Positions 4,300-63,858 of a DNA stretch of 64,000 nt are shown in pieces. Within the stretch, counting starts at the first letter, position 1. Each line of letters starts with the position of its first letter. Under the pieces are notes generated by a model. That model was given only the letters and a program-made list of their open reading frames with translations. It was not told the DNA's origin and searched no databases. Origin of the DNA: Acholeplasma hippikon (GTDB lineage Bacteria > Bacillota_I > Bacilli_A > Acholeplasmatales > Acholeplasmataceae); NCBI RefSeq assembly GCF_900660755.1, contig NZ_LR215050.1, positions 620,001 through 684,000 of the forward strand. Reading direction: 5' to 3'. Position numbers and translations under genes: made by a program.

Positions 4300-4515
4300 T
4301 AAATAAATAAAAAAAGTCCCATAAAAGAATACTCTTCTAAGGACGAATCAAATCCGCGGTACCACCTTAGTTCGCAAGCTTTACTTGCGCACCTTCATTA
4401 TTGCTGTTAAGGCCAGCGTACTTTAGCTCCTAAGGTAGCGTTCATCAGGTCATTTATCACTTTTCACCAACCAGTGACTCTCTAAATAATGGCTTTGACT
4501 ACTCCTCTTATTCAT
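4300..4515 (-). promoter_or_regulatory. T-box leader (alanine specifier GCU) with transcription attenuator, controls alaS
   Basis: On the minus strand the leader carries the T-box proper AAGGTGGTACCGCGG (4354-4368), a stem I region with the GGTTGGTGAAAA-type apical segment, and the specifier GCU at 4437-4439 followed by the usual ACC. The terminator hairpin (about 4316-4344) runs into a U tract at 4308-4315. CUAAGG just 5' of the T-box can pair with CCUUAG in the terminator 5' arm, giving the alternative antiterminator. Uncharged tRNA-Ala should therefore permit transcription of alaS. The leader also fills most of the 322-base gap between alaS and the GNAT gene. Confidence 0.92.
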
Positions 4516-4521
4516 CGCTAC

Positions 4522-4558
4522 AATGATTTTATCATATTTATAAAAAAAATCATTATTT
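4522..4558 (-). promoter_or_regulatory. probable promoter of the alaS T-box transcript
   Basis: Upstream of the leader on the minus strand a TTGATT box is followed after about 18 bases by TATAAA, with TATGAT a few bases further on as an alternative -10. The region is nearly pure A/T, so the exact -10 is uncertain. Confidence 0.4.
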
Positions 4559-12650: not shown

Positions 12651-12681
12651 TAAAAAAAGACGTAAAAAAACTTACATATTC

Positions 12682-12792
12682 TCTTCTCTCATCCAGACTA
12701 TACTGTCGGTTCCTGAATTTCACAGGATCCTGCAAAAAATTTGCTCGCAGACTTTAACTGCCGGTGAGGAATTACACCTCGCCCCGAAGATG
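12682..12792 (-). promoter_or_regulatory. FMN riboswitch (RFN element)
   Basis: Read on the minus strand the conserved RFN blocks appear in order: ATCTTCGGGGCGAGGTG, the CCTCACCGGCAGT strand, AGTCTGCGAGC, GGATCCTGTGAAATTCAGGA and CCGACAGTATAGTCTGGATG with the closing GAGAGAAGA. It lies in the 333-base gap between ribU and gpmI and points to ribU. FMN binding should favour the downstream terminator. Confidence 0.97.
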
Positions 12793-12810
12793 ATTTAATT
12801 TAGCAAAGTT

Positions 12811-63542: not shown

Positions 63543-63672
63543 ATCAAACATTCCTTTATTTTTAAGTCCAAACCTCATTTTATAAAATATACAAATTGAA
63601 GTCAAAGAAAGTTATAAAAGAAAATTTAGGGGTGTGGTAAATTGTCGTAATTTAGTTATTTATAGTATAAAT

Positions 63673-63709
63673 AAAAAAAAGCGACCCCGGCACTAAAGGC
63701 GCCGGGGTC
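63673..63709 (-). terminator. terminator of the small RNA (and possibly topA)
   Basis: Nine-bp GC-rich stem (63683-63691 with 63701-63709) and eight T on the minus strand (63673-63680); much more GC-rich than the surroundings. Confidence 0.92.
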
Positions 63710-63775
63710 ATTAAAGGGGATTTGTGTACAAAGTACACTAATAGGGGATAAGTAGCACCCAATTTCGTTGAGTGC
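63673..63775 (-). ncRNA. candidate small regulatory RNA with two exposed UCCCC motifs
   Basis: About 103 nt on the minus strand, not coding. Hairpin 1 pairs 63768-63775 with 63755-63762 (GCACUCAA / UUGGGUGC, one G-U pair that would be a mismatch on the plus strand), linker AUCCCCUAUU (UCCCC at 63744-63748), hairpin 2 GUGUAC-UUU-GUACAC (63724-63738), linker AAUCCCCUUUAAU (UCCCC at 63716-63720), and a terminator stem GACCCCGGC / GCCGGGGTC with eight U. Unpaired C-rich motifs beside stable hairpins are the hallmark of Firmicutes sRNAs such as RsaE/RoxS that bind Shine-Dalgarno sequences. It fills the 316-base gap between topA and the U32 genes. Confidence 0.75.
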
Positions 63776-63781
63776 ACGTTT

Positions 63782-63810
63782 ATTCTACTACTACGTTTTT
63801 TCAATGTAAA
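63782..63810 (-). promoter_or_regulatory. promoter of the small RNA
   Basis: Minus-strand TTTACA (63805-63810), an exact 17-base spacer and TAGAAT (63782-63787), one mismatch in each hexamer. The predicted start falls at the first base of hairpin 1, near 63775. Confidence 0.7.
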
Positions 63811-63858
63811 GTTTTGCAACTTACTATGTTTTTTTTAACATTTTTATTCGACAATCTC

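Follow-up and report, generated by a model that had tools for sequence, protein, structure and literature searches.

A candidate family of small RNAs with two C-rich linkers, found beside topA in Acholeplasma hippikon and across one bacterial class

We analyzed a 64,000-nt stretch of Acholeplasma hippikon DNA (the window), in which topA lies upstream and a gene for a U32 peptidase lies downstream of a compact unit on the minus strand. The transcription unit (~63775-63674, minus strand) is laid out as promoter, hairpin 1, UACUUAUCCCCUAUUA, hairpin 2, AAAUCCCCUUUAAU, and terminator hairpin. Its features, with mean pairwise identities from an alignment of seven Acholeplasma sequences, are as follows.

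63810-63672, minus strand: whole compact unit including promoter and U tract
63805..63810, minus strand: -35 box, TTTACA (93% identity over window positions 63811-63805)
Between the two boxes, minus strand: spacer of 17 nt (48% identity)
63782..63787, minus strand: -10 box, TAGAAT, TATAAT-like in relatives (95% identity)
63674..63775, minus strand: sRNA of ~102 nt, with a putative 5' start 6 to 7 nt past the -10 box and a 3' end within the U tract
63755..63775, minus strand: hairpin 1 (GCACUCAA...UUGGGUGC), with one U-G pair, from the fold
63739..63754, minus strand: linker 1, UACUUAUCCCCUAUUA, unpaired, with UCCCC at 63748-63744 (100% identity over 63752-63738)
63724..63738, minus strand: hairpin 2, GUGUAC-UUU-GUACAC, from the fold
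63711..63723, minus strand: linker 2, AAAUCCCCUUUAA (or AAAUCCCCUUUAA(U)), unpaired, with UCCCC at 63720-63716 (96% identity over 63722-63710)
63682..63710, minus strand: terminator stem-loop of 12 pairs, followed by CTTTTTTTTA
63672..63681, minus strand: U tract CUUUUUUUUA, directly 3' of the terminator stem

The sRNA had a minimum free energy of -41.0 kcal/mol, compared to a mean of -21.4 kcal/mol for 200 dinucleotide shuffles (z, -6.5), none of which folded as well, and the opposite strand reached a z of only -3.6. The U-G pair of hairpin 1 would turn into a C/A mismatch if the opposite strand were read, which marks the minus strand as the sense orientation. A preliminary description of this DNA had proposed the promoter, the three hairpins, the terminator, and a UCCCC in each linker and had taken the orientation from the same U-G pair; every one of these elements was found where it had been placed. 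Hairpin 1 begins near the expected transcription start. The promoter pattern by itself is within chance for such AT-rich DNA (5 such sites in 2 kb against 9.9 expected), and we judge the promoter to be real because its -35 and -10 boxes are conserved, not because a pattern was matched. No conserved ORF was found within the sRNA (195 of 211 ORFs of at least 8 amino acids were distinct), and a coding region or small peptide was ruled out because the ORFs are not common to the copies.

A nucleotide search detected the element in each of the eight Acholeplasma genomes examined, the carriers including A. laidlawii, A. oculi, A. granularum, and A. equifetale. The preliminary description had named loss of the stems and of the CCCC motifs in close relatives as the observation that would speak against it; the opposite was found, with both kept in 8 of 8 genomes. 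Beyond the values listed above, the seven-sequence alignment showed 90% identity in hairpin 2, 65% in the terminator stem-loop, where the pairing is nevertheless kept, and 36% in the downstream sequence. The unpaired linkers are thus the most constrained parts of the element, a pattern that is expected of an antisense-type RNA.

A covariance model built from 28 sequences (R1) matched the window at 63674-63778 with 99 bits and identified the sRNA in 41 of 88 genomes at the family level and 45 of 160 at the order level, nearly always as a single copy per genome. It was absent from all 29 genomes of one genus (g8) of family f1, which are reduced in size (300-900 kb) and probably represent phytoplasmas. 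In the 28-sequence seed alignment, 94% of cells were paired and 16 of 22 pairs showed changes on both sides; sliding the pairing partners as a control lowered the paired fraction to 31-51%. Other families of the class gave weak R1 matches (33-46 bits). By eye and by single-sequence folding, nearly all of these consist of hairpin 1, a linker at or near ACUUAUCCC(C/U)UACAUA, hairpin 2, a linker at or near ACAUCCCCUUCC, and a terminator, and their stems differ completely in sequence despite the same layout. Judging from these sequences, we take the weak matches to be true relatives or, at the minimum, RNAs built on the same plan. Of 395 genomes of the class, a second model (R2), built after this inspection, matched 80, which belong to families f1, f3, f5, f9, f12, f16, f17, f19, and f24, giving a breadth of about nine family-level groups within a single class (all but f12 and f17 inspected by eye). 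In f16, some genomes have the sRNA at two or three dispersed positions. Sampling 392 genomes of the phylum gave no matches outside the same class. Eight raw DNA pattern matches elsewhere (e.g., in Lachnospiraceae and Bacteroidetes) did not fit the structure and were discarded as chance.

When 60 copies were aligned, 97% of the stem cells were paired and 21 of 22 pairs showed both-side changes (6/6 consensus pairs in hairpin 1, 5/6 in hairpin 2, and 10/10 in the terminator), counts that lean towards the model because this alignment, unlike the seed alignment, was fitted to the structure. Compensatory change in hairpins 1 and 2 around invariant C motifs had been put forward in the preliminary description as a sign of a genuine RNA, and each of the 60 copies indeed has CCC in both linkers. 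UAUCCC occurs in linker 1 of 56 of the 60 copies, across families, and single-sequence folding leaves the linkers unpaired in nearly all cases. Taken with the conserved promoter and terminator, these data bear out the earlier claim of an unannotated, structured, strand-specific sRNA, place its C-rich unpaired linkers under the strongest constraint, and extend it well past the Acholeplasmataceae, a breadth which that description did not contemplate. We conclude that the minus strand adjoining topA in A. hippikon almost certainly carries a gene for a small RNA of ~100 nt, belonging to a real and uncatalogued family.

We infer both that the sRNA is transcribed and that its linkers pair with mRNA, and we favor, as the probable explanation, a repressor acting in trans through pairing of its UCCCC linkers with ribosome binding sites (RBSs) that are rich in G. 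Transcription would start from the sRNA's own sigma-A-type promoter behind topA and stop at the sRNA's own terminator. The two C-rich linkers, ACUUAUCCCCUA and AUCCCCUU, would be presented in single-stranded form by hairpins 1 and 2 and would pair with the G-rich RBSs (GGGGA and flanks) of several mRNAs, perhaps in carbohydrate metabolism, and this pairing would keep 30S subunits from binding and thereby repress translation. RBS regions with GGGG are present at 125 of the 1,359 genes of the A. hippikon genome. We computed duplex energies of both linkers against positions -30 to +15 of each called start in this genome and in 800 kb of a second species. The top predicted candidates in the A. hippikon genome were components of sugar ABC transporters (SBP_bac_1 and BPD_transp_1), a GH130 mannooligosaccharide phosphorylase, and a GalE-like epimerase. 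Also among the top candidates, the RBS of a gene for a 258-amino-acid protein with no Pfam or NCBIfam match (L178, 8641-9414; C1:108641-109417) is predicted to pair with linker 2 at 17 of 17 nt, with G-U pairs allowed, at -24.3 kcal/mol. Across 519 orthologue pairs of the two genomes, however, the real linkers performed no better than linkers in which the core was kept and the flanks were shuffled, so no excess of conserved targets was seen. Enrichment of sugar ABC genes among the predicted targets was at most weak (P = 0.18 in the A. hippikon genome and 0.03 in part of the second), and enrichment of linker flanks beside GGGG in RBSs was weak and inconsistent. Of the proposal that this is a posttranscriptional regulator in Acholeplasma, the sRNA itself stands, and control of translation is left without a general target excess in the two-genome screen.

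The best conserved single predicted site lies at the start of glgC, the second gene of a glgA-glgC operon. In six of the eight genus genomes, the predicted pairing of linker 1 with the glgC RBS has an energy of -14.3 to -15.4 kcal/mol; in the other two it is -13.0 and -9.3 kcal/mol. The letters of the site vary (GGGGGATAAA, GGGGTAAGTA, and AATAGGGGAG) yet the predicted pairing is kept. An energy of -14.3 kcal/mol was reached by 3.5% of genes in the A. hippikon genome, and the mean was reached by 2.5% of core-kept shuffled linkers; these statistics are post hoc, since glgC was chosen for ranking first among the 519 orthologue pairs, and we therefore treat it as a lead. With that understanding, glgC, and with it glycogen synthesis, is tentatively the best single target lead. 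As a separate observation, glgC was absent from 13 of 13 genomes of genus g8 that were searched.

One feature of the linkers sits less easily with the repressor model: besides the C core, ACUUAU is also invariant, which is more than plain anti-Shine-Dalgarno pairing needs. Two near-identical single-stranded motifs, held in fixed places and invariant past the C core across families, could instead titrate or recruit a pyrimidine- or poly-C-binding protein of the KH or cold-shock type, much as CsrB acts on CsrA with another motif, and the lack of a general target excess in our screen would fit such an RNA. We nonetheless regard protein binding as an unlikely basis for the family, given that typical titrating RNAs carry many motifs and this one only two, and that the linker sequence is complementary to G-rich RBSs.

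The genomic context of the sRNA bears on whether it acts in trans at all. As in the window, topA is the upstream gene in most of the family (the exceptions are L004 and L013), with the sRNA close behind it. The downstream gene varies; where A. hippikon has the U32 peptidase, A. laidlawii, among others, has an ABC ATPase, and other genera have a thiol peroxidase (tpx) and then ftsY. Three families share the order topA-sRNA-(tpx)-ftsY, and in one locus each of families f5 (L137) and f9 (L135) the sRNA lies between topA and ftsY, both genes being confirmed by Pfam and NCBIfam; that this position is kept in f5 and f9 supports common descent over that distance. In families f16, f19, and f24 the sRNA is found at other loci. 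The proximity to topA and the recurrent topA-RNA-ftsY order are what one would expect if the element were a 3' product of topA or a riboswitch-like leader or attenuator of the next gene. We consider this improbable, because the element has its own conserved promoter and strong terminator, persists while its downstream gene switches, is found behind genes other than topA and at unrelated loci in other families, in some cases in two or three copies, and shows no conserved alternative fold involving the linkers. Retention of the form of the sRNA while the next gene changes points instead to an independent RNA, and the element combines the general features of an independent trans-acting sRNA, namely, its own promoter and terminator, no ORF, a conserved fold, and varied neighbors. 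Separately, we noted that at L004 and L008 the ABC ATPase gene just downstream has an RBS (TATAAGGGGAAA or TATAGGGGTGA) complementary to linker 1, which is not so in the A. hippikon window.

No Rfam family matched the sRNA at gathering thresholds, either in the window or at 20 distant loci, where the two matches obtained were a nearby tmRNA and tRNA. The window's only matches above Rfam gathering scores lie elsewhere on the minus strand, an FMN riboswitch at 12677-12795 and a T-box leader at 4336-4524. At lax thresholds, the best match was LhrC (RF00616; 24.3 bits, E = 0.09, cutoff of 110), and RsaE/RoxS (RF01820) scored 15.6 bits (E = 2.4) against a gathering cutoff of 79. The RsaE model found nothing above cutoff in the A. 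hippikon genome and 40 relatives and was positive in a B. subtilis control. RsaE, LhrC, and all other Rfam families were accordingly rejected as the identity of this RNA. RsaE/RoxS, to which the preliminary description likened the sRNA, is similar in its length of ~100 to 115 nt, its C-rich regions of the UCCCC type, and its terminal terminator, and AUCCCCUU-type motifs are common to the two. The two C motifs here stand strictly between three hairpins, however, so that the order of hairpins and C motifs differs. RsaE/RoxS also has a conserved Rex operator just downstream of its start and a ResD site near -65. In the stretch upstream of the sRNA, no site had fewer than two mismatches to the Rex consensus and none was conserved. 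No conserved CcpA (cre) operator was found in the sRNA promoters. In a few copies a cre-like sequence spans the -35 box, too little to support a claim. At window positions 63811-63840, upstream of the -35 box and directly past the topA stop codon, a TGT-N8-ACATA-like element is common to Acholeplasma species and is a possible regulator site.

RsaE/RoxS represses redox and central-metabolism mRNAs through RBS pairing, and the LhrC RNAs of Listeria base-pair with Shine-Dalgarno regions; FsrA, the csRNAs, IsrR, and similar C-rich sRNAs of Firmicutes rely on the same principle of C-rich anti-Shine-Dalgarno pairing. LhrC resembles the sRNA in its UCCC-type motifs and rho-independent terminator and differs in having a long unpaired 5' tail and, in the Rfam consensus, a C motif in the loop of hairpin 1. 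FsrA, the csRNAs, IsrR, and the like are set apart here by the lack of an Rfam gathering match at the window locus and in 20 distant relatives. By analogy, the sRNA plausibly works like RsaE/RoxS or LhrC; the likeness proposed in the preliminary description was one of function only and is still plausible. Kinship with RsaE/RoxS, like membership in either family, is not supported. The motif likeness could suggest a divergent RsaE/RoxS descendant that kept its motifs and rearranged its hairpins, or a sponge for a G-rich sRNA, and both are very improbable given the RsaE scores and given that no G-rich partner RNA was identified. A sponge would have a precedent in the sponge partner described for RoxS in B. 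subtilis (PMC8216469). A search of the open literature, excluding the supplements of PMC8632094 and of PMC8040213, a survey of RNAs of the human microbiome, found no report of this sRNA; the main text of the former, a 26-genome search for structured RNAs that covered Acholeplasma, describes a motif upstream of aroF and not this sRNA. Because no Rfam family matches at threshold and the layout is unlike that of RsaE/RoxS, we consider the sRNA to be the founding example of a new family of C-rich sRNAs that is unusually widespread.

Trans-acting sRNAs are usually limited to close relatives, and this one spans about nine family-level groups with its two linkers almost frozen. More speculatively, and short of what we would call probable, it may be an ancient, class-wide core sRNA of Acholeplasma and related uncultured Bacilli, inherited at topA-ftsY, duplicated in some families, and setting carbohydrate storage and uptake through RBS pairing. 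If so, it would rank with RsaE among the most widely conserved trans-acting sRNAs known from Gram-positive bacteria and the wall-less relatives of these. RsaE has been described as the sole sRNA besides 6S RNA that is common to Staphylococcus aureus and B. subtilis (PMC4409812). A. laidlawii has only ~52 transcription factors (PMC5138195); since it carries the sRNA, is cultivable, and is wall-less, posttranscriptional control can be tested there directly. The covariance model permits immediate annotation of the sRNA in dozens of genomes. In one of these (L128, genome G315), two copies lie in tandem on the minus strand at 1506-1615 and 2061-2134, separated by ~450 nt, and the match to the second lacks a terminator stem.
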